DNA of 25,475 nucleotides from a virus, in the IMG/VR virus record IMGVR_UViG_3300042695_000484, positions 1 to 25,475 of that record, one strand, 5' to 3'. The notes beneath the pieces were generated by a model. That model was given only the letters and a program-made list of their open reading frames with translations, searched no databases and was not told the DNA's origin. Of this stretch, positions 3,148 through 22,322 are shown piece by piece. Both the position numbers and the translations under genes were made by a program. How positions within the stretch are numbered: the first letter of the stretch is position 1; every line of letters begins with the position of its first letter.

Positions 3148-4452
3148 TCAGGTGGAGCTGGTGCTCAGGTAGCGGAAGGCGTTCACGTTGGTGACCGTGA
3201 AATCGACTCGGCTCTGCGCGTAGTAGCCACTTTGGTTGCTTTCCGCATAGCGCTCGCGCAGCACCTTGAGGGTGTAGCCGTTGCGCTCGCCGATCACGCC
3301 GTAATCGAACGCGCCGATGCAGGCCAGCTTGGCGGGGTTGCCAGTGGTGCCTGCGCTCGACACGGCGAACGACGGGTAGATCGGGATGCCCATGAAACGA
3401 TCGGGCTCGCCGAGCGCGCCGCTGGGCTGCCAGAAGTAGGTCGTGGTCGAGCTGCTGATGACCGCCAGCTTGCGCAGGTTCTGCAGGAAGGTGTCGCTGC
3501 AGACGATCGCGCAGCTGGGGTGCATGCGGTACTCGCGCGGCAGGCTGTAGACGAAGTCGATCACGTCAGCGATCGCGTAGGTCGGTGCAGCAGCCGTGCC
3601 AGCAAAAGCCTTTCCGTCTGCGATCAGGTTCTGGCCCGTGGCGGTGTAGGTCATCAGGCCGCGGGGGTTCGGTGCCGTTGCGTTGCCGGCGATGAAGCCG
3701 TTCTCCTCCACCTCGGCGAACTTACGGGCGAACTGCTCGGTCAGGATCGACTCGATCGAGAAGCCGGGGCCGCGAGCGGGGGCGTCTTCGATCAGTTCGT
3801 TCGAAACCAGCGCAAGGCCAGCCAGGCGACGAGGCTGCAGCGTGCGTGCAGCGAACGTGCCAGTGCTGTCGCTTGCAGCTCCGGCCTCGGACAGGAACGA
3901 TGCGCCGACCAGACCCGTTTCGATCGCGATCTCGCGCTTGAACGAGCCGAGAGGCATCACCTTGCAGAGCTTGCGCATGATGCACATCTGCTGCAGGCGC
4001 TTGGTCAGCTCCTGGTGGAACTCAGTCGGGGGCAGCACGTCGCCGGAGCCCGAGGTGCCCTCGGACAGGGCGCGCATTTCGGACACTGGGGTGTGCTCGC
4101 CACGCTTCAGGTAGGTCGCGTAGGCGTTCTGGTACTCGTCGCTGCAGCGGAAGTCGCCGAAACGCGGGGCGCGCTGGGCGGTCTCGCGAGCAGCGGGAGC
4201 ACGACGCACTTCGGGCGCGTCCGGGCCCACGTCAACGAAGCCCGCGTCCTTGTCCTTCGCGGCGAGGCCCATCAGCGCGTGGTTGCGCTCGATCTGGCTC
4301 TGCACGCTGCGGTACTCGGCGTTCAGCGCGTCGAACTTGGCAGTGTCCTCGGCGCTCATGTCGCCGCCGTTGGCGTTGGCCGCCTCGATCATGTTCTGCA
4401 TGGCGCGGTAGCGGGCGTCGTTGCCCTCGCGCAGTTCCTTGTAGCCCTTCAT
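3148..4452 (-). CDS. HK97-fold major capsid protein with N-terminal delta domain (capsid 1)
   Basis: A 434-residue HK97-type major capsid protein. Residues 1-100 form a charged, probably coiled-coil region (DAEYRSVQSQIE-like helices, then an Arg/Ala-rich linker), matching the scaffold-like delta domain that the prohead protease removes. The mature-like part begins near FRCSDEYQNAYATYLKRGEH and carries RALSEGTSGSGDVLPPTEF, LQPRRLAGLALVSNELIEDA, a GN..APNPRGLMT loop and a C-terminal R.ERYAESNQSGYYAQSRVDF strand region, all typical of the family. AAGGGA lies eight bases before the ATG. It is adjacent to and clearly related to the next gene (4480-5616). Because it has the delta domain and family-typical length, this is the more likely principal shell protein. 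Confidence 0.93.
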   Translation of the reverse strand: MKGYKELREGNDARYRAMQNMIEAANANGGDMSAEDTAKFDALNAEYRSVQSQIERNHALMGLAAKDKDAGFVDVGPDAPEVRRAPAARETAQRAPRFGDFRCSDEYQNAYATYLKRGEHTPVSEMRALSEGTSGSGDVLPPTEFHQELTKRLQQMCIMRKLCKVMPLGSFKREIAIETGLVGASFLSEAGAASDSTGTFAARTLQPRRLAGLALVSNELIEDAPARGPGFSIESILTEQFARKFAEVEENGFIAGNATAPNPRGLMTYTATGQNLIADGKAFAGTAAAPTYAIADVIDFVYSLPREYRMHPSCAIVCSDTFLQNLRKLAVISSSTTTYFWQPSGALGEPDRFMGIPIYPSFAVSSAGTTGNPAKLACIGAFDYGVIGERNGYTLKVLRERYAESNQSGYYAQSRVDFTVTNVNAFRYLSTSST

Positions 4453-4479: not shown

Positions 4480-5616
4480 TTAGCCGCGGTGGATTCCAAA
4501 TGCCGCGTTCACGTCAGTCAGCGCTCCAGCGCATCGAACCGACACGATGAACGCGACTTCGTTCGTGGCGGCGTAAGTTTCATTCAGTCGCGTCACGCTG
4601 ATCCCGTTGCCAGCGAGGGCGAGCATGTAGCGCGACAGGTCAGCGGCAACCACCAGCGGCTCGCCGGCGGCGGGCACGCTTGTGTTGGATGCCGGGCTCA
4701 TTTCCGCAAACAGCCACGGCTGGCCGAACAGTCGGCGCTCCGACCAGAGCGCGACCTGCGACTGTGCAGCCGGAACAATTCCAGCGCCCTGCGAAGATGC
4801 GGTCGGGTGGATGTTTAGCTGTGAGTTGAAGATCCACGTGGCCCGCTCAAAGTAGGCCGATGTCAGGCGCGCGTTCTGCACGAGGCCCAGCGTCGCATTC
4901 AAGATGCCGTTCGTAGACTGCGTCAGGACTCCATAGTCACCACCCAGCGCAGCAGTAGTAGTGATGCTGCGGCTGTATCGCTTGAGCGTGTTCACGATGC
5001 CGTGGCACGCATCGCTGCCCGCGGTGCTCGCCGTGCCGGCGGTCACGCTGTCGTCCTTGTTGCCGATCAGGATCTGTCGGCTGAGTTCTCGGTTGAGGTC
5101 TTGCGACGCCTGCTTGACGATGATGTTTTCGACGCTCGCGTCGCCCTGCGACGCAGAATCCTCGACCAGTTCCCGCGAGGCGCGCACCATGACGCTGATG
5201 CGCTTCAGGGTAAAGGTCGCGGTGCTGCTGCCCGTGTTGCTTGTGCCTGGCTGCGTGAATGACGGCACGGTCACGGTGGTCTGGCTGCCGGCTGTTGCGT
5301 CGATCAGGGTGCCAGCCTCGCCGGGGTTCTTCTGGACGCTAAAGCCAGCCGACCCGGTGGGGGTGATGATCGGCACGCTGAAGGTGCCCGTCGAGGTGTA
5401 GACCTTGCTCACCTGTCCGACGATGCGGTCGTCGCCCATCTCGGCCATGAACATGTTCGAGTAGGTCGTCGGGAACAGAACGGCGCCGCCCGTCGCGCTG
5501 CCCTCGCTCAGTGCGCGAGCTTCGACGTCGGTCAGACCGTTGTGCCCGCGGGCGAGGTAGCGCGAGAACAGGCCGCGGTACTCCTCGCTGTTCCGATCCA
5601 GTTTGTTCTTCTCCAT
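4480..5616 (-). CDS. Second HK97-fold capsid protein lacking a delta domain (capsid 2)
   Basis: A 378-residue HK97-fold protein paralogous to capsid 1. SEEYRGLFSRYLARGHNG and ARALSEGSATGGAVLFPTTY align with SDEYQNAYATYLKRGEHT and RALSEGTSGSGDVLPPTE of capsid 1. FTLKRISVMVRASRELVEDS matches its spine-helix region, and LALAGNGISVTRLNETYAAT matches its C-terminal strands. The N-terminal delta domain is missing: only about ten residues precede the mature-like start. GGAGA lies six bases before the ATG. It is encoded between the prohead protease and capsid 1, where a single capsid gene is usual. It could form pentamers or another special shell position, be a minor shell component, or be an ancestral capsid kept after recombination. 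Both frames are intact, so decay is not evident. Confidence 0.9.
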   Translation of the reverse strand: MEKNKLDRNSEEYRGLFSRYLARGHNGLTDVEARALSEGSATGGAVLFPTTYSNMFMAEMGDDRIVGQVSKVYTSTGTFSVPIITPTGSAGFSVQKNPGEAGTLIDATAGSQTTVTVPSFTQPGTSNTGSSTATFTLKRISVMVRASRELVEDSASQGDASVENIIVKQASQDLNRELSRQILIGNKDDSVTAGTASTAGSDACHGIVNTLKRYSRSITTTAALGGDYGVLTQSTNGILNATLGLVQNARLTSAYFERATWIFNSQLNIHPTASSQGAGIVPAAQSQVALWSERRLFGQPWLFAEMSPASNTSVPAAGEPLVVAADLSRYMLALAGNGISVTRLNETYAATNEVAFIVSVRCAGALTDVNAAFGIHRG

Positions 5617-10406: not shown

Positions 10407-10766
10407 TCATGCCGATAGCGGGCCAGAATCGCCACCCCCCCCGGTCTGACGCCGTTTCCTTGCATCCACGTCGCGCATGGTCTTTCGAAGGTGACATTCG
10501 TGACAGCACGGTGCGAGATTGTCGAGCGCGTTGTCGCCGCCGTCTCGCAGCGCGAGGATGTGATCGACTTCGGTGGCCGCAGTGACCATGCCACGCTCCA
10601 TGCAGTAGCGACACAGCGGCTCGCGGTTCAACGCAACGCGACGCGCCTGCTGCCAGTTCCACCCATAGCCACGCTCGTGCGTCGAGCCCGGCGCGCGCTC
10701 GGGGGCAACAGCCATCGGCATCTCGCGCGGCTTGCCCACGCGCAGCCTAGGCGGACGCTGCCTCAC
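10407..10766 (-). CDS. HNH endonuclease (packaging-associated type)
   Basis: A 119-residue HNH nuclease. A basic N-terminus and RGYGWNWQQARRVALNREPL lead into a zinc-supported beta-beta-alpha-metal fold: CRYC, then TEVDHILALRDGGDNALDNL with the catalytic His in the VDHI motif and the Asn in DN-ALDNL, then CHEC and LRKTMRD. It matches small phage HNH proteins such as HK97 gp74 that sit next to terminase and help cleavage at cos. The chosen start is GTG at 10766, which overlaps the upstream stop as GTGA and has GGAGG eight bases upstream; ATG at 10796 lies in the upstream gene with no Shine-Dalgarno. Confidence 0.92.
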   Translation of the reverse strand: MRQRPPRLRVGKPREMPMAVAPERAPGSTHERGYGWNWQQARRVALNREPLCRYCMERGMVTAATEVDHILALRDGGDNALDNLAPCCHECHLRKTMRDVDARKRRQTGGGGDSGPLSA

Positions 10767-11047
10767 TGATCCATCCTCCGGTAGCCGGCCTTCCACAGCG
10801 CGCGCGCGATGGCCGTGGCCGTGGCCTCGACTGCCTGCTCGTCGAGCTCAGGGCGTGCAGCGTGCAGCACCTCATGCACCAGCACGTCCATCGCCCGGTA
10901 GCCGCGCAGGGCGCGCCGCAGCTGGATGAGCGGGTGCCGGCCGGCGGGCAGCCAGCATCGGCCCCAGTCCTTGCCCATCGTCTTCGCGTCCTCGTACACG
11001 ATGCGCCAGGTACGGCCAGCGATCTTGCTGCGGAACTCACTGCGCAC
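10763..11047 (-). CDS. Small zincin-like protein with HEVLH motif
   Basis: A 94-residue protein with an HExxH zinc-protease signature: YRAMDVLVHEVLHAARPELD followed by EQAVEATATAIARALWKAGY. The helix-borne HEVLH plus downstream acidic residues (ELDEQAVE) resembles minimal gluzincin-type metallopeptidases. The N-terminal half (IAGRTWRIVYEDAKTMGKDW) may supply the beta-sheet edge. Start GTG at 11047 has GGAGG six bases upstream and overlaps the phosphoesterase gene by eleven bases; its stop overlaps the HNH start. No signal peptide is visible, so it would act in the cytoplasm. A substrate cannot be named; a role in cleaving a host or phage regulator would be guesswork. Confidence 0.75.
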   Translation of the reverse strand: MRSEFRSKIAGRTWRIVYEDAKTMGKDWGRCWLPAGRHPLIQLRRALRGYRAMDVLVHEVLHAARPELDEQAVEATATAIARALWKAGYRRMDQ

Positions 11048-11996
11048 GGGTCACCTCCGCTGCAAGTCGATACTCGCTCTGCTTGCCTGCAATGTGCAGA
11101 CGCATCCACACTGCGCCCTTGCTCTTCGGTGCCATGCCGCGCTCGACAGACCACCCGCCAAAGCCGTCGCCGTGTTCGTCCTTGTAGGTGCCGATGCGCA
11201 CATGCAGCTGCTCGTCGATCACCACCTCGGCTTGCCCGTTGAACTGGCGCAGGCGCTCGCGTGCGATGGGCACGGTCCAGTGGTGGTGCGAGTGTCCGGT
11301 TATCACCATGTCGGCATCAGGCCAGAACGACGCATGCCGGCGCGTGTCGAGCACGCCGTGCGTCATCATGGCGCCGCCGCCTGCACCGTGGAAGTAGCGC
11401 ACACGGAACGAGAACGAGCCGCCCTTGCTTGTGATCAGTCGGAACAGGACATAGCCGCCGTAGCCGCCCGAGTAAACGGGGCAGGGCGCGCTCGCACTGA
11501 GCCCGGCGCACAAGCGCTCGGTGAGGTCGGTCTCGTGGCGCTTGGTGATCGCGGTCTCGTGATTCCCGCGGCCGATCACCACGAAGCGGTCGGCATACGG
11601 CTTGTAGAACTCGGTCGCCTCGCGCACGAGCGCGTCGAGGTAGTCGCCGCACTGGTGCTCGGGCCTGCATGCGCTGCGGTCTGCTCGCGGATCCCACTTG
11701 CCCTGCATGCAGCAGAACAGGTCGCCGCAGTCGATCACGCCGCCCTTGCGCCTCACCAGTTCGTCGAGGTGCTTGCGCTCAAGGTCTTGGTCGGTGTGGC
11801 TGTTGTCGTGGTGGCGGTCGGATGCCAGCAGCCCGTTCCACTCGAACGCATGCGGCGTATCGGCCAGCATGGTCACGCGGTGGATGTTGCGGCCCATCTT
11901 CTCGACGGTCCACTTCGAGCCCGGCGATGCGCCTTCGCGCCAGTGGTGGCTGGCGAGCGGATCTTCGACGCGCTTGCGTTCGCTGAGTCGCTTCAC
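11037..11996 (-). CDS. Calcineurin-like metallophosphoesterase
   Basis: A 319-residue protein with all core metallophosphoesterase motifs in order: an Asp/His pair in GLLASDRHHDN (D-x-H), VIDCGDLF (GD), VVIGRGNHETA (GNHE) and MVITGHSHHHW (GHSH), which together bind two metal ions. Between them lie a Cys-rich loop (DLFCCMQGKWDPRADRSACR) and a YFHGAGGGAMMTHGVLDTRR segment. Phage relatives include nucleic-acid phosphoesterases acting in DNA processing, but the substrate is not visible here. Start GTG at 11996 has GGAGG seven bases upstream and overlaps the resolvase stop (GTGA). It lies within the nuclease gene cluster, which favours a DNA-related role. Confidence 0.88.
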   Translation of the reverse strand: MKRLSERKRVEDPLASHHWREGASPGSKWTVEKMGRNIHRVTMLADTPHAFEWNGLLASDRHHDNSHTDQDLERKHLDELVRRKGGVIDCGDLFCCMQGKWDPRADRSACRPEHQCGDYLDALVREATEFYKPYADRFVVIGRGNHETAITKRHETDLTERLCAGLSASAPCPVYSGGYGGYVLFRLITSKGGSFSFRVRYFHGAGGGAMMTHGVLDTRRHASFWPDADMVITGHSHHHWTVPIARERLRQFNGQAEVVIDEQLHVRIGTYKDEHGDGFGGWSVERGMAPKSKGAVWMRLHIAGKQSEYRLAAEVTRAQ

Positions 11997-16825: not shown

Positions 16826-17676
16826 GCTGCGACTCCTTCTTCCAGTTGACGGCGCAGCCACTTCGGCGCGCCCAGCTTCTGCACCTCGTCCGGGTAGGCC
16901 CGGAACACGCCACCACGCTTAGCCACGGCCCACGCCTCGATCGCACGATCGACCTCGGGCTCGAACAGCGCGACGATCTCCTCGTCGAGCGCGTAGCAGC
17001 CGACTCCGTAGGGGTCGCTGGTCTCGACCGCGATGAAGATGAACTCGCTCACCTTCAGCCCGGCCGCACGCGCTACGCGCATGTAGAACGCGGCCTGCGC
17101 GCCGTAGCCGTAGGACGCGAGCGTGCGCTCGAACTCGCTTCGCGACGCCAGCCCGCTCGTGGTCTTGATGTCCACGATGAACTCGCCGCGGTCGCCCGGC
17201 GCCCATGCATCGAGGCGTGCCTTGATGGGTAGCCCGATCAGCGGGTCGGTGGCGAACACAGATACCTCGCGCACGTTCGCCATCCGCAGCAGCCCGGCGG
17301 CTGCCTTCGACGCCCGCACCGCCTCGACCATGCCGGCCAGACTTTCGCCCTGGTCGGCGGTGATCACCGTGCGGCCCTCGGCCTGCAGCTGGAACTCCTC
17401 CCACGTCGCCTTGCCGTCCTTCGTGCGACGGTCGCACTCGGGCGCGATGGCGATCTGGGCCTCGAACTTCGCCGGCTCCAGCAGCGCAGCATGCAGGGCC
17501 GTCCCCAGCCGCTGGCTGGCGGTCTCCTCGCGGTTGCGCAGCGCAGCCATCGCGTGAGCGGGGGACGCCGACAGCACCTTGCGCAGCGTGCTTGAGCCCA
17601 GAGCGTCTACGGCGTGATAGACCGCCGCCGGCATGTCCTCGACGATGCGGTTCGGCAGGAGCTGCTCAATTTTCAT
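16822..17676 (-). CDS. RecE-type PD-(D/E)XK exonuclease
   Basis: A 284-residue nuclease of the RecE C-terminal/DUF3799 type. Family landmarks are AVYHAVDALGSSTLRKVLSA SPAH, RLGTALHAALLEP near residue 60, WEEFQLQAEGRTVITADQGE, and the catalytic core IKARLDAWAPGDRGEFIVDI followed by KTTSG (Asp and DIK residues near 155-172), then YGYGAQAAFYMRVA. It degrades the 5' strand from double-strand ends to feed the RecT-type protein. GGAGG lies seven bases before the ATG at 17676. The adjacent exonuclease, annealase and SSB-like genes form a full recombination unit. Confidence 0.92.
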   Translation of the reverse strand: MKIEQLLPNRIVEDMPAAVYHAVDALGSSTLRKVLSASPAHAMAALRNREETASQRLGTALHAALLEPAKFEAQIAIAPECDRRTKDGKATWEEFQLQAEGRTVITADQGESLAGMVEAVRASKAAAGLLRMANVREVSVFATDPLIGLPIKARLDAWAPGDRGEFIVDIKTTSGLASRSEFERTLASYGYGAQAAFYMRVARAAGLKVSEFIFIAVETSDPYGVGCYALDEEIVALFEPEVDRAIEAWAVAKRGGVFRAYPDEVQKLGAPKWLRRQLEEGVAA

Positions 17677-17815
17677 CGCAGGCCTCCGCGGCGAGCGCCT
17701 TCAGTTCACGATCGAGCAGGATCGCCAGGCGGATCTTCTGCAGTGCCCGCTTTTCGTGGTAGGCGACGGTGGTGCGATCGCAGCCGAGAATCTCGGCGAC
17801 TTCCTGCTGGCTCAT
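17666..17815 (-). CDS. 49-residue sigma-region-4-like HTH protein
   Basis: A very small ORF: MSQQEVAEILGCDRTTVAYH followed by EKRALQKIRLAILLDRELKA and a short acidic tail. The EVAEILGCDRTTVAYHEKRA segment matches the helix-turn-helix of sigma-70 region 4.2 (pattern: EIAExLGxSRxxVxxxExRALxKLR), which binds the -35 element, yet there is no region 2 or 3. The ATG overlaps the upstream stop (ATGA) and the TGA lies eleven bases inside the exonuclease gene. It could regulate phage or host promoters by binding -35-like DNA or core polymerase. Function is inferred from the motif alone. Confidence 0.75.
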   Translation of the reverse strand: MSQQEVAEILGCDRTTVAYHEKRALQKIRLAILLDRELKALAAEACDEN

Positions 17816-18192
17816 CGGGTGCCCCCAATCCGCGCGCACAGCTCGAGCAGCCAGTTGCGGCCCTCGGACTTCTTCACCTCGGCCTTCACCACGTCGGCCT
17901 CGTACAAGTCGCGGCGGTAGTCGCCCTGACCCAGAGACACCAGCGGCACCTGAGGCGGCCGCGAAGACTTGTTCAGGATGGCATCGACCGCAGCCACGAC
18001 AGCCGGCGCCTCGATGCGCCCAGCCTTGTGGGTTTCGGTCAGCAGTGAAATGGTCTCATGCAGGTTGTGCAGCATCACCAGCCGCACCCGCATCGCATCC
18101 ATGCTCCGGCCTGCGTTCAGGAGATCCTGAACCGCGACGCCGCAATCCTCAACGACCTGACCCCACCGCAAACGTTCCATCGCTTGCTCCAT
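17812..18192 (-). CDS. Hypothetical 126-residue helical protein
   Basis: A 126-residue, mostly helical protein I cannot assign: MEQAMERLRWGQVVEDCGVA, LNAGRSMDAMRVRLVMLHNL, ETISLLTETHKAGRIEAPAV, then GDYRRDLYEADVVKAEVKKS and a basic end. It is the first gene of the recombination operon. ATG at 18192 has AGGGAG eight bases upstream; the gene overlaps the 3' end of the integrase frame by 44 bases. It might be an early regulator or excision factor given its position beside att, but no HTH is visible. Confidence 0.75.
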   Translation of the reverse strand: MEQAMERLRWGQVVEDCGVAVQDLLNAGRSMDAMRVRLVMLHNLHETISLLTETHKAGRIEAPAVVAAVDAILNKSSRPPQVPLVSLGQGDYRRDLYEADVVKAEVKKSEGRNWLLELCARIGGTR

Positions 18193-19471
18193 CGCCGGCT
18201 CCCTGCTGCGTCAGCAGCATCTGGGCGTGGTGCATCAGCACGAGGGCACCTTCACGGTGGCCCGCTTGCGTTAGCATCAGCGCCGCTTCCAGAAGCCGTT
18301 CAGCCCGTAGGTGGGGGCGAAGGTTCGAATCCTGTAGCGCCCACTTTTCAGCAGACGGGACCGAACGGCTGCGAGCAGATCGAAGATCAGCGCGAGAGAT
18401 GGAATCAACGGCCGTAGGCGCGAAGCTCGCGCTGATCGTCGAAGTGTTCGCAGTGTTGGATGCGCCGTAGGCCATCGTTGATTCCGAGGGGAACCTATCG
18501 GCTGCACTAGTTTTCGGGGGAGAGTTTTTAGATATTTTTCCGCCGCGGCTCTCGGCCGCCTCCCGCAGGCGGGGCTCCCGGTGACGCAAGTATCGGTGGG
18601 TCTGGTCGATAGAGCGGTGGCGCACCAGACGCTGGATCAGTTCCGGAGGGGTGCCGTTCTCAAAGGATTCGGTGATGTAGCCGCAGCGGAAACTGTGGAA
18701 TCCGTAGCGCCCGGAGAGCCCTGCAGCCGCCAGATCCGTCGCGAGCCCCTTGTATGAAACGGTGCGCTTGAACAGTTTCGGCCCGTCCTTCGCCTTGCGC
18801 ATCTCGCGCAGCAGTTCCACCGCCGCGCTCGCGAGCGGGATGTTGTCGCGCCGGCGCGCCTTGTCCAGGCTGACCACGAGCGTGCCCGCGTCGAGGTCCA
18901 CGTCGGACCACAGCTGCGCATGCGCCTCGCCGCGGCGCAGGCCAGTGAGGCTGAGGAAGCGGTACAGGTTCGCTCGGTTGCGCGCGCTGGCTCGGATGGC
19001 TGGCGACGCGCCCTTTGTCTCCTGCTCGCGCGCGTGGGCGATCAGGCGCTCGACCTCGGCGTCGGTGAATGCGTCGCGCCCCTGACCCGCGCGCCCGCGC
19101 GGGCTGGGGACGTGCGCCCACGGGTTCGAATCGATGAGCCCCTGAATCAGCAGCCAGCCGGCGAAGCGCCTGCATGCGCTCATTCGGTTGCGAATCGTCT
19201 GCGGTGCGAGCGTGGCCTCGCGGGTCATCTCGCGCAGCCACTCGATGCAGGAGCCCGGGCCGATCTCGCGCGCGTTCGCCTTCACATGCTCCAGCCAGTC
19301 GCGCACCCAGCGCGCAGCCTGGCGGACGTGCATCTCGGCCTGCCCGTCGAGCTCACGGGTGGCAACGATCCACGCATCGACCTGCGTGAGAAGATCTACC
19401 CCTGTTTTTTCGCTAAAAACGGGGGGGGGGGGGGGTAATGGCACGGGGTATCTCCAAGCATGGCTCCGCAT
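18149..19471 (-). CDS. int: Tyrosine integrase
   Basis: A 440-residue site-specific recombinase. The core-binding domain spans about residues 30-130 (TIRNRMSACRRFAGWLLIQG); the catalytic domain has Arg179 in SLTGLRRGEAH, Lys204 in VSLDKARRRD, His259 and Arg262 in HSFRCGY, His285 in LVRHRS and Tyr294 in QTHRYLRH, the full R-K-HxxR-H-Y set. After residue ~320 the frame becomes non-conserved and runs through the att core, reading WALQDSNLRP near residue 376, a sequence often seen where integrase frames cross tRNA-derived att sites. The 5' end contains a C15 tract coding for prolines, so the start (ATG 19471 here; GTG 19483 possible) and the N-terminus are uncertain. Confidence 0.93.
   Translation of the reverse strand: MRSHAWRYPVPLPPPPPVFSEKTGVDLLTQVDAWIVATRELDGQAEMHVRQAARWVRDWLEHVKANAREIGPGSCIEWLREMTREATLAPQTIRNRMSACRRFAGWLLIQGLIDSNPWAHVPSPRGRAGQGRDAFTDAEVERLIAHAREQETKGASPAIRASARNRANLYRFLSLTGLRRGEAHAQLWSDVDLDAGTLVVSLDKARRRDNIPLASAAVELLREMRKAKDGPKLFKRTVSYKGLATDLAAAGLSGRYGFHSFRCGYITESFENGTPPELIQRLVRHRSIDQTHRYLRHREPRLREAAESRGGKISKNSPPKTSAADRFPSESTMAYGASNTANTSTISASFAPTAVDSISRADLRSARSRSVPSAEKWALQDSNLRPHLRAERLLEAALMLTQAGHREGALVLMHHAQMLLTQQGAGDGASDGTFAVGSGR
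18321..18343 (+). other. Probable attP core: 3' end of a tRNA gene
   Basis: On the plus strand this stretch contains the T-loop signature GGTTCGAATC followed by CCTGT and AGCGCCCA, which fit the T-stem 3' strand, acceptor 3' strand and discriminator base of a tRNA. The upstream bases do not give a D-arm, anticodon arm or matching GGGCGCT acceptor 5' strand, so only the 3' end is present, as expected for an attP core targeting a tRNA gene. Flanks on both sides belong to phage genes. Which tRNA is targeted cannot be told from the fragment. Confidence 0.85.
19421..19435. repeat. G15/C15 homopolymer in the integrase 5' end
   Basis: Fifteen consecutive G on the plus strand read as C15 in the integrase frame (Pro residues). 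Just beside it the minus strand reads a GTTTTT/AAAAAC-type dyad: CCCCTGTTTTT (from about 19399) pairs with AAAAACGGGGG (19416-19426) around a short loop. A tract this long is prone to replication slippage and to sequencing error. Confidence 0.9.
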
Positions 19472-19665: not shown

Positions 19666-19929
19666 ATGGCGACAGTGCAAGAAGACGGTGGTCTGAGTCC
19701 CGACGAGGTGCGCAAGATCCGCGCGCAAGAACAGGTGCGCGTGCAAGTTCAGCGCGAAGAGAAAGAACGCCAGGAGCGCGAGAAGCTCCACCGCCACATG
19801 CAGCTGCAGGCGGCCGAAGATGCGGAAGCACGGCGACAGAATCAGAAGCGCAACATGAAGGCCATCGCCTTCGTCGTGGGCGTCTTTGTCTTCCTCGTCG
19901 TGATGATCATGATGATCAAGCCGGGCTAA
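19666..19929 (+). CDS. Small tail-anchored membrane protein, the only rightward gene
   Basis: An 87-residue protein. Residues 10-60 are very rich in Glu, Gln, Arg and Lys (VRVQVQREEKERQEREKLHR), a likely coiled coil. The C-terminus is a single membrane span (AIAFVVGVFVFLVVMIMMI) followed by KPG, so a tail-anchored inner-membrane protein is expected. GGAGGAG lies six bases before the ATG. It opposes all other genes and overlaps the convergent zinc-ribbon gene only in the stop codons (CTAA). Such an isolated, separately transcribed gene beside int is a good candidate for expression in the prophage, e.g. superinfection exclusion; that is inference. Confidence 0.85.
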   Translation: MATVQEDGGLSPDEVRKIRAQEQVRVQVQREEKERQEREKLHRHMQLQAAEDAEARRQNQKRNMKAIAFVVGVFVFLVVMIMMIKPG

Positions 19930-20435
19930 CTCAGCAGCCGCTTCACCTGGTCCGCGACCGTGCCGGCCACGCCACCGATCGCCTCGATCGCAGTGGCGAC
20001 GCTGCCGCCTTCTCCAGTCACTGGCTTCCACTTCGCGAGCGGGCAGGTGGCGCCGGCCAACGTCAGTTTCACAGACAACGCGGCGCGCTTGCTGGTGCAT
20101 CCGCACTTGGTGCAGAAGCCCACGCCGCCGGGGTCTGCCTTGCCTTCCATCTCGTCGGCGCGTCCGTCGCAGCCTCTGCAGATGACGGTGCGCTCGGCCA
20201 CCACCTCGGCGCTCGCCGGGCCTTGCGCGGCGTGACGCGCCTCGGCCGCCAGGTACGCCTTCGCGCGATCCATGAAGCCGTAGGTGATGCTGGTGCCGAT
20301 GGGCTGCTCGCCTCGCACCACGCGGTGCGGGCACTGTCCACAGACGCCCAGGCTCGGCCGGCCGCCGTAGTGCCCAGCGGCGCAGCAGCCGCCGCCCAGC
20401 ACCTTGCACTCGCTCCAGTGGTCGCAGTCGATCAT
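19926..20435 (-). CDS. Zinc-ribbon-type cysteine-rich protein
   Basis: A 169-residue protein with paired cysteines throughout: MIDCDHWSECKVLGGGCCAA, LGVCGQCPHRVVRGE, then VICRGCDGRAD and GFCTKCGCTSKRAALSVK with ATCPLAKWKP. The last set (CxxC, CxxCGC, CPLxKW) resembles small zinc-ribbon domains of phage and bacterial proteins such as DUF6171. The C-terminal 30 residues are a Gly/Ala-rich helix. ATG at 20435 overlaps the preceding stop (ATGA), so it is coexpressed with the cysteine-rich protein upstream. Its role is unknown; a late gene product with metal sites is the most that can be said. Confidence 0.75.
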   Translation of the reverse strand: MIDCDHWSECKVLGGGCCAAGHYGGRPSLGVCGQCPHRVVRGEQPIGTSITYGFMDRAKAYLAAEARHAAQGPASAEVVAERTVICRGCDGRADEMEGKADPGGVGFCTKCGCTSKRAALSVKLTLAGATCPLAKWKPVTGEGGSVATAIEAIGGVAGTVADQVKRLLS

Positions 20436-21379
20436 GTGACGCGAACCCACGAGCCTGCAAACTGATTTCCAGTCGTGTATTCAGCGCTGCCACAAGTGCT
20501 ACTCACAACCATCTTGTACAGGCCGCGGTGGTTGTTGCACGCTACCGGCGGGTTGTTCCCATTCTCATCCTCAACACGCACGAAAACCAATCTTCCCATG
20601 CTGGTGATCCCGTCGAAGCACAGCGTTTCATCTGTTCCACTAAAACACTCTTGCGAGGGGTAGGTAAAACTTTGAGAAGCCAGCGCGGTCGTATCTCCAG
20701 TCCAAAAAGTGGTGCAGTCGCAAGCCGAGGGTGAACCGCTGATGCAATTTTGATTCATCCAATAGTGTGCATCGACATCATAAATCCGCACAATCGTGCT
20801 TTCACCGTTGCAGCATGTCACCGTATTGCCTGGGTCTTTCCTAGCCACATCAATCGTGATCTGATGACAGTTGCAGCAACCCCATTCGGATGGCGTTCCA
20901 GCAGATGAACCTGACTCGATCATCGGCGGGCCGGAATCTACGAACAGGGAATACCCATCATTGACGCAGGCTTGGCAAGTAGGGCTAGCGGAAATGCTGG
21001 CATAAGTTGAAACGAAAGTGTCGGTGCCGATCAGCCCCTTTTTGTAGTAGGTGGTCGAGATACCGTTGTCGCATGACTTGTCATATGTGCCAAGCAATGG
21101 GGCATACGAGCATTGCGGGCTCGAACCTTCTGATCCGCACGCGGTCAAATTGGACCGTTGAACGATCCAAGACTTTGTGAACGAGAAACTTGATGCCGTG
21201 TAGGAGAGTGCGGAATTGCACTCGCTTGGGCATGGCGGTTCCTGTGGCGAACCTGCAACGCAGATTGGTTTCTGCCATGTGAACGCGATGTACACCTCCA
21301 CGCTGTAGCTCGTCGGAAGATTGTTGCCACATGCCGGGCAATTTGCACCGCAGCAGCAGCCCGCCGTCATCATGCTCAC
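20432..21379 (-). CDS. Cysteine-rich protein of atypical composition, possible host-range factor
   Basis: A 315-residue protein with about 25 cysteines, beginning with GCCCGANCPACGNNLPTSYS and continuing with many short Cys-containing loops (GCCNCHQITIDVARKD, VTCCNGESTIVRIYDVDAHY, SACDCTTFW). The DNA is visibly lower in GC than the flanking genes and richer in Asn, Ser, Thr and Tyr codons, suggesting recent acquisition. GTG at 21379 is preferred (AAGGA seven bases upstream) over the ATGs at 21373 and 21370. No signal peptide is seen. Late position after tail genes fits a tail-tip or adhesion protein, where swapping is common; this is not proved by any domain. Confidence 0.75.
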   Translation of the reverse strand: MSMMTAGCCCGANCPACGNNLPTSYSVEVYIAFTWQKPICVAGSPQEPPCPSECNSALSYTASSFSFTKSWIVQRSNLTACGSEGSSPQCSYAPLLGTYDKSCDNGISTTYYKKGLIGTDTFVSTYASISASPTCQACVNDGYSLFVDSGPPMIESGSSAGTPSEWGCCNCHQITIDVARKDPGNTVTCCNGESTIVRIYDVDAHYWMNQNCISGSPSACDCTTFWTGDTTALASQSFTYPSQECFSGTDETLCFDGITSMGRLVFVRVEDENGNNPPVACNNHRGLYKMVVSSTCGSAEYTTGNQFAGSWVRVT

Positions 21380-21382
21380 GGG

Positions 21383-21520
21383 TCAGTCCTTCTTGCCAGG
21401 AATCCACGAGGCGATGCGGGTCACGCTCACGAGGTGGCCGGCGATGTAGCCGATGGCGAGCATGGCGATCGCGGCCCAGGTCGAACCGACGAGGCTTTCA
21501 ATGGTGGCGAGGATGATCAT
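21383..21520 (-). CDS. 45-residue membrane protein, holin-like candidate
   Basis: A tiny gene, MIILATIESLVGSTWAAIAM followed by LAIGYIAGHLVSVTRIASWI and a basic end PGKKD. One membrane span fits residues 12-32. ATG at 21520 overlaps the lipoprotein stop (ATGA) with GGAGA seven bases upstream. Its place among small membrane-protein genes in the late region suggests a holin or antiholin, but size and a single span are weak grounds. Confidence 0.65.
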   Translation of the reverse strand: MIILATIESLVGSTWAAIAMLAIGYIAGHLVSVTRIASWIPGKKD

Positions 21521-22035
21521 GTGCGCTTCTCCTGCTGCGCGCGGAATGCGGAATCGAAGAGTGGGTCAACGGCGCGCTTGGCGCTGATCCACTCGCGGAC
21601 GTTCTCAGTCTTGGCCGGGTCAAGGGTGGCGGCGGCCAGCGCCGCCTCGGTGCGCTTGGCGCGCGGGATCAGCCCCACGGCTGCCCGCAGCGCCTGCCCG
21701 ATGCCGGTCTGCCACAGCAGCACCGCGGCGGCCACCACGATCACCGCCGCGAAGCCCCAGCCGAGCAGGCTGGCCCACCACGGGGTCTGATCCTCGACGC
21801 CTGGCAGCGCCTCGTGGATCGACGCAGCTGCGTGCTCGATCTTCTGGGCCTCGATCACGATGGTCGCGGCGTCGGCCACCACGTCGGGCTGCGTTGAGAC
21901 GCTGCCGATGTGGGTGGCGAGACGGGCGATGGTGCCCGCCCGTGCCTGCGCGTCGGTCGCCGAGACGGCGATCTGCCGGCTGGGGCTGCAGGCCGCCAGA
22001 GCGACGAGGAGCAGGAACAGCAGCGACCTGATCAC
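21517..22035 (-). CDS. Lipoprotein with internal membrane span, spanin-like candidate
   Basis: A 172-residue protein with an N-terminal signal MIRSLLFLLLVALAAC whose lipobox (LAAC, Cys16) predicts a lipid-modified N-terminus. A helical, presumably periplasmic region follows (residues 17-85), then a strong membrane span at about 88-108 (SLLGWGFAAVIVVAAAVLLW) and a charged 60-residue tail. Lipid anchor plus membrane span in one protein recalls the unimolecular spanin of phage T1, though there the span is at the very C-terminus. A tail-associated or chemosensing-like helical role is also possible. It overlaps both neighbours by ATGA. Confidence 0.7.
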   Translation of the reverse strand: MIRSLLFLLLVALAACSPSRQIAVSATDAQARAGTIARLATHIGSVSTQPDVVADAATIVIEAQKIEHAAASIHEALPGVEDQTPWWASLLGWGFAAVIVVAAAVLLWQTGIGQALRAAVGLIPRAKRTEAALAAATLDPAKTENVREWISAKRAVDPLFDSAFRAQQEKRT

Positions 22036-22322
22036 CGCCGCCCCTCCAGACGGTCCAAGCGGTTCGCGACCTGCTGGAGCGCCTCTGCGTGCTTCTGGTC
22101 GTTCGCGGCGCCCAGCACCTGCGACTTCACCAGGTCGCCCACGATGCTGCGCAGCTCCGTCAGGTCGCGGTCTTGCCTATCGAGGATCGCGTCCTTGCGG
22201 CCGAGCGTGATGAACACGCCGGCGACGCCCACCACCAGCACGAAGAGCTGCATCACGCTGATGGCCGTCGCGAGCTGCGGGTGGGTCTGGTGCCTGGGGC
22301 CGATAGGGGTGGGGCTCATCAT
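22032..22322 (-). CDS. Small membrane-anchored coiled-coil protein
   Basis: A 96-residue protein: a short N-terminus (MMSPTPIGPRHQTHPQLATA), one span at about residues 20-42 (SVMQLFVLVVGVAGVFITLG), then a charged helix with heptad character (RQDRDLTELRSIVGDLVKSQ, EALQQVANRLDRLEGRR). This N-in, C-out layout is that of inner-membrane spanins (Rz-like) and of some holins. ATG at 22322 overlaps the upstream stop (ATGA). Paired with the lipoprotein gene that follows, it could form a two-part spanin, but equally a tail-chaperone-like membrane protein. Confidence 0.65.
   Translation of the reverse strand: MMSPTPIGPRHQTHPQLATAISVMQLFVLVVGVAGVFITLGRKDAILDRQDRDLTELRSIVGDLVKSQVLGAANDQKHAEALQQVANRLDRLEGRR

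Follow-up and report, generated by a model that had tools for sequence, protein, structure and literature searches.

The window analyzed here, i.e. the whole stretch of 25,475 nucleotides, encodes three consecutive small membrane proteins whose lysis-like module recurs among uncultivated phages, and the wall-cutting step has one testable candidate, a small gluzincin. The window comprises an entire linear IMG/VR record (IMGVR_UViG_3300042695_000484, 25,475 bp, GC content about 0.65). Its source is a small temperate tailed phage with genes for an integrase, RecT, an exonuclease, a primase-helicase, a terminase, a portal, a prohead protease, two HK97-type capsid proteins and a tail tube, and nearly all genes of the record are carried by the minus strand. 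The genes that are central to the analysis are listed in Table 1.

Table 1. Coordinates of the membrane trio, the gluzincin and phosphoesterase genes, and the neighboring Cys-rich genes.
Feature	Coordinates	Strand	Description
tm95	22032..22322	-	96 aa, ATG start; N-terminal span followed by a coiled coil
lipo	21517..22035	-	172 aa, GTG start; u-spanin-like lipoprotein, one internal span across the inner membrane
tm45	21383..21520	-	45 aa, ATG start; one span, holin-like or amurin-like candidate
Gluzincin	10763..11047	-	94 aa, HExxH...E, SprT/IrrE-like; best wall-cutter candidate
Metallophosphoesterase-like protein	11037..11996	-	PF00149 E 0.053; PHROG DNA repair exonuclease 2.1e-9
Zinc-ribbon-like Cys protein	19926..20450	-	a similar protein is encoded directly before the cassette in L249 and L344
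Hypervariable Cys-rich protein	20432..21379	-	adjoins the cassette; relatives have other Cys-rich proteins in its place

The initial annotation had placed three consecutive small membrane-protein genes at 21383-22322, and the ORFs were found at these positions on the minus strand, with an overlap of 4 bp at each junction. All three genes are under strong purifying selection (dN/dS ~0.1), and the comparison with relatives yielded pN/pS values of about 0.1-0.2 in frame. For the lipo gene, the pN/pS pattern is reversed in the other two frames. The frame-specific purifying selection indicates that the trio is translated, and the in-frame pN/pS values together with the presence of homologues in about 200 viral contigs show that the three genes are not chance ORFs.

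Twelve other phage records, among them Mu-portal siphoviruses, podoviruses with a DNA polymerase, and T7-like phages, were searched with profiles made for 37 genes of the window. Homologues of lipo were found in all 12 records, and homologues of tm95 and tm45 in 9 of the 12 each. The 12 records were mostly chosen through lipo, and therefore the counts for tm95 and tm45 carry the weight. No window genes outside the trio have homologues in nearly all of these structurally unrelated records; most of the 37 genes had no match outside the cluster, except for the structural genes, which matched a prophage-like contig (G031), and a few scattered matches. When tm45 alone was used as the query, 61 loci were obtained; lipo lies no more than 5.5 kb away in 57 of them, and among the other four some run into a contig end.

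The gene order in the T7-like phage L384 is tail fibre, tm95, lipo, tm45, a small gene, and TerL. T7 keeps its holin and spanins between the tail fibre and TerL, in the order holin 17.5, TerS 18, Rz/Rz1 18.5/18.7, and TerL 19, so that the trio in L384 occupies the T7 lysis slot, and members of the trio lie between tail fibre and TerL in T7-like relatives. However, the proteins are not recognizably related to those of T7 in sequence, and lipo joins a lipoprotein and a span in one protein, whereas T7 uses Rz/Rz1. It had been suggested that the cassette resembles lysis genes in the usual lysis position. Recurrence as a unit in unrelated phages, the T7 lysis slot in L384 and the u-spanin architecture of lipo all speak for this reading, and mainly because of the joint recurrence and the position in L384 we regard the membrane trio as a probable lysis module.

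The lipo protein has a lipobox (LAAC-S) with a cysteine, Cys16, that is invariant in 15 divergent homologues. Its hydropathy profile comprises a signal peptide and one internal span (residues 89-107), and the median hydropathy of the span in the lipo family is 2.5. A lipobox was recognized in 81 distinct mature lipo sequences; the residue at +2 is mostly Ser or Ala and never Asp, and sorting to the outer membrane is predicted. Of these 81 sequences, 63, including the window protein, contain no periplasmic Cys, and the remaining 18 contain one each, probably derived from a double-Cys lipobox (LIACAAC). The span is followed by a conserved C-terminal tail of ~60 aa that is predicted to be cytoplasmic.

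Published u-spanins have a lipobox, no Asp at +2, no periplasmic Cys and one span (PMC6139136). Lipo shares with the unimolecular spanins of the phage T1 gp11 and PB1 families the N-terminal lipobox, an essentially Cys-free periplasmic segment, a single span after it, and the lysis-gene position. The earlier description of a lipoprotein with an internal span resembling a unimolecular spanin was thus borne out by the lipobox, the internal span and the overall architecture, and lipo may be a unimolecular spanin that acts on the outer membrane. There are two differences from the known proteins. The periplasmic part is beta-rich in T1 gp11 but predicted to be all-helical in lipo; because the AF2 model of lipo is helical, at moderate confidence (pLDDT 73.8, pTM 0.34), lipo is probably not a member of the T1 gp11 family. 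In addition, classical u-spanins lack the extra conserved cytoplasmic tail. A structure search with lipo matched only one “Lipoprotein” of an uncultured phage, all other matches being noise.

The tm45 protein contains the conserved motif GSxWxA...GYxAGH, which is kept between phages with GC contents from 0.32 to 0.65. It is holin-like in being small, in having one span, and in having a positively charged C-terminus. If holin candidates are defined as small proteins with at least one span that are encoded beside other lysis-like genes, tm45 is among them, and as a holin it would permeabilize the inner membrane at a set time. For tm95, hydropathy indicates one span (residues 20-38). In 87 of 101 sequences of the family the C-terminal side of the span is richer in Lys and Arg, which by the charge rule corresponds to an N-out/C-in orientation, and the coiled coil is predicted to face the cytoplasm. 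XhlA-type lysis accessory proteins likewise combine one span with a predicted cytoplasmic coiled coil, but in the opposite order. A comparison with PHROGs yielded a sub-threshold match of tm95 to an Rz-like spanin (E 0.063). An Rz-type i-spanin needs an N-in span and a periplasmic coiled coil; this role is disfavored by the charge pattern and less likely because the coiled coil of tm95 is predicted to be cytoplasmic.

In agreement with the initial annotation, which had seen no lysin motif in the window, scans of the window proteins (30 in Pfam, 20 in PHROGs) yielded no lysin match. For the portal, terminase, chaperone and small connector genes of the window, the assignments come from homology or visual inspection only. 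Five lysin Pfam families (Amidase_2, M15_4, phage lysozyme, SLT, and GH108) were searched in 50 related records, which were picked by matches to TerL, lipo, tm45 or the gluzincin, with no random comparison set. Amidase_2 and M15_4 were absent from the 50 records; the count for GH108 was also zero, but this search had no positive control, so that the zero is not evidence. A phage lysozyme domain was found in six records, all of them AT-rich T7-like phages, in ORFs of about 1200-1330 aa. An SLT domain was found in two records, in a protein of ~130 aa with a signal peptide, and one of the two matches was below the curated cut-off. Such a signal-peptide SLT transglycosylase accompanies the trio in G016/G017. 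At L385:2045-2443 and L161:11424-11855, the gene for the SLT transglycosylase with a signal peptide lies on the opposite strand, and the phages concerned have the trio but lack the gluzincin. Batch Pfam scans of the proteins of related phages revealed no further lysin among the matches listed (25 of 30 families in one case), and several trio-bearing lineages have neither the gluzincin nor a recognized lysin.

None of the 33 gluzincin-bearing records contains any of the five lysin families, in contrast to 8 of the 17 records without gluzincin, which contain lysozyme or SLT. This anticorrelation has a Fisher p value of 4.5e-5 by record and is not significant by lineage (p 0.18). In the gluzincin, an invariant HExxH is accompanied by a Glu farther downstream, and the AF2 model of the protein is a confidently predicted zincin (pLDDT 92.1). 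The closest fold neighbors are IrrE/PprI (Z 5.9-6.0) and Spartan (Z 5.4), with selecase also among them. No recognized peptidoglycan-hydrolase domain was matched; instead, there was a weak match to the SprT-like family PF10263 (16.4 bits, below the gathering cut-off of 25.6), and the gluzincin profile had no match among PDB sequences. The HExxH...E core and the predicted fold (Z 5-6) are shared with the SprT/Spartan and IrrE/ImmA gluzincins, but the window protein has only 94 aa and falls below the PF10263 cut-off, and in several lineages the gluzincin gene is associated with the lysis-like membrane genes. A literature search for zincin endolysins yielded nothing decisive.

The gluzincin gene is overlapped by the gene for the metallophosphoesterase-like protein. 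Similar pairs are present in G001, G012, L249, L250, L299, L306, and L315; most of the gluzincin lineages that were read have such a pair. The cassette order is tm95-lipo-phosphoesterase-gluzincin-tm45 in G001 and zinc ribbon-tm95-phosphoesterase-gluzincin-tm45-lipo in L249/L252. In L347/L349 the gluzincin gene directly precedes tm45 and lipo, and in L299 it overlaps tm95, the gluzincin and phosphoesterase genes lying inside or against the cassette. About 10 kb separates the gluzincin gene of the window, which has HNH and TerS as neighbors, from the trio. When the proximity of gluzincin and trio was assessed in a rough combined test, the p value was about 8e-4; it overstates the evidence, since the lineages are partly related to one another and hand-rounded distances were used. 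A comparison of L167:8024-8779 with the window gene showed that two different metallophosphoesterase subfamilies fill this slot in close relatives.

Three explanations had been offered for the apparent lack of a lysin: an unrecognized enzyme, a single-protein mechanism, or a gene in a missing piece. The first is the most likely, and the gluzincin is the named candidate. The structure search that had been proposed for finding a lysin was run on the gluzincin only; it revealed a zincin of the IrrE/SprT type, but not a known lysin fold. Taking together the predicted topologies, the putative holin and spanin functions and the putative lytic activities, the best explanation as a whole is that the trio and the candidate gluzincin are a joint lysis system, which we place slightly short of an even chance. 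tm45 would most likely be the holin, and tm95 possibly its partner, with the coiled coil toward the cytoplasm. Lipo would be a helical unimolecular spanin, with the lipid anchor in the outer membrane and the internal span in the inner membrane, and would disrupt the outer membrane. The trio would require a separate peptidoglycan-cutting enzyme, here most likely the small cytoplasmic gluzincin, which would be let out by the holin. The metallophosphoesterase would be a partner of the gluzincin, in a role that is unexplained. The assignment of the gluzincin as the lysin of this phage is somewhat more tentative than the joint system, and more tentative again is the generalization that minimal gluzincins with an IrrE/SprT fold are a new class of phage endolysins, acting with a widespread module of holin and helical u-spanin.

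Several observations do not fit the joint system easily, i.e. the distance between gluzincin and trio in the window, the lack of significance of the anticorrelation by lineage, with one SLT match of the eight below the cut-off, and the existence of trio lineages with neither gluzincin nor recognized lysin. Furthermore, the fold neighbors IrrE and Spartan act inside the cell as proteases in DNA-damage pathways, and the family that the phosphoesterase resembles is one of DNA repair nucleases. The main rival is that the trio is a lysis module, while gluzincin and phosphoesterase work together in DNA-protein processing or in regulation, as a Spartan/Mre11- or IrrE-like pair, and the lysin is another unrecognized protein or a virion-borne domain. 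We consider this less likely than the joint system, although it agrees with the fold neighbors, with the PHROG match of the phosphoesterase and with the location of the window pair among nuclease and packaging genes, and although lysins elsewhere are exemplified by the lysozyme domain in the long ORFs of the AT-rich T7-like relatives and by the SLT protein of G016/G017. The location of the pair in the membrane cassette in several lineages argues against it, as does the fact that no other lysin was recognized in the gluzincin-bearing genomes.

Lysis could also proceed without a muralytic enzyme, if tm45 (or tm95) acted as the single-gene lysis proteins of small phages do, by blocking the synthesis of the cell wall, and lipo finished the outer membrane. 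The constancy of the tm45 motif over the wide GC range may suit a host target better than a typical holin, and several trio phages have neither gluzincin nor a recognized lysin. However, we know of no precedent in tailed phages, and G016/G017 encode an exported transglycosylase along with the trio, which shows that a muralytic enzyme and the trio can occur together; lysis without such an enzyme appears improbable. To a similarly low degree, the trio might be an envelope module, e.g. for superinfection exclusion, instead of a lysis module. The large conserved cytoplasmic tail of lipo, unusual for a spanin, would be compatible with this, and the roles of all three members were read from sequence; the T7 lysis slot in L384 and the u-spanin architecture of lipo argue for lysis. 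There is a negligible chance that missing sequence at the window ends, which the initial annotation had considered, encodes a canonical lysin. Synteny with the relatives of 25-28 kb runs genome-wide. The record is linear and has no end repeats, but the positions matching the two window ends are exactly 168 bp apart in every close relative, and this interval covers the end of tail-T and the beginning of the tape measure gene. The genome is therefore effectively complete at about 25.64 kb, and the 168-bp gap within tail genes refutes a lysin hidden at the ends.

Among catalogued dsDNA phages, 97.4% are reported to carry a gene for one or more known lytic proteins (PMC12596118), whereas most of the trio carriers examined have no recognizable endolysin. 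No homologue was found when three members of the lipo family were compared with 50,697 GenBank phage records. Because the module is common to unrelated uncultivated phages and its lipoprotein had no homologue among these records, work on cultured phages has probably overlooked a lysis strategy. If the gluzincin cuts the wall, it would represent a new lysin class. The trio also provides a predicted helical u-spanin family and a handle for the annotation of lysis genes in environmental phages.

A host search yielded two matches in bacterial genomes, both to short phage-bearing MAG contigs; clade searches revealed no convincing prophage, and a literature search for a planctomycete-type host gave nothing decisive. 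The hypervariable Cys-rich protein next to the cassette is possibly an adhesin and probably outside lysis; relatives keep an N-terminal CCC motif, with bodies that differ. Two HK97-type capsid genes are adjacent in the window (3148-4452 and 4480-5616; PF05065 at 6.5e-43 and 2.1e-17), and the second is strongly divergent between relatives. A 57-aa protein resembling sigma-70 region 4 is encoded at 17666-17839 and has homologues in podovirus-type relatives. A single divergent gene by the integrase (19669-19929, plus strand) encodes a product with a conserved N-terminus and a variable C-terminus, the C-terminal anchor being very hydrophobic. The 3′ part of the integrase gene contains a tRNA T-arm-like stretch (about 18308-18343), which varies among relatives and is a possible attP.
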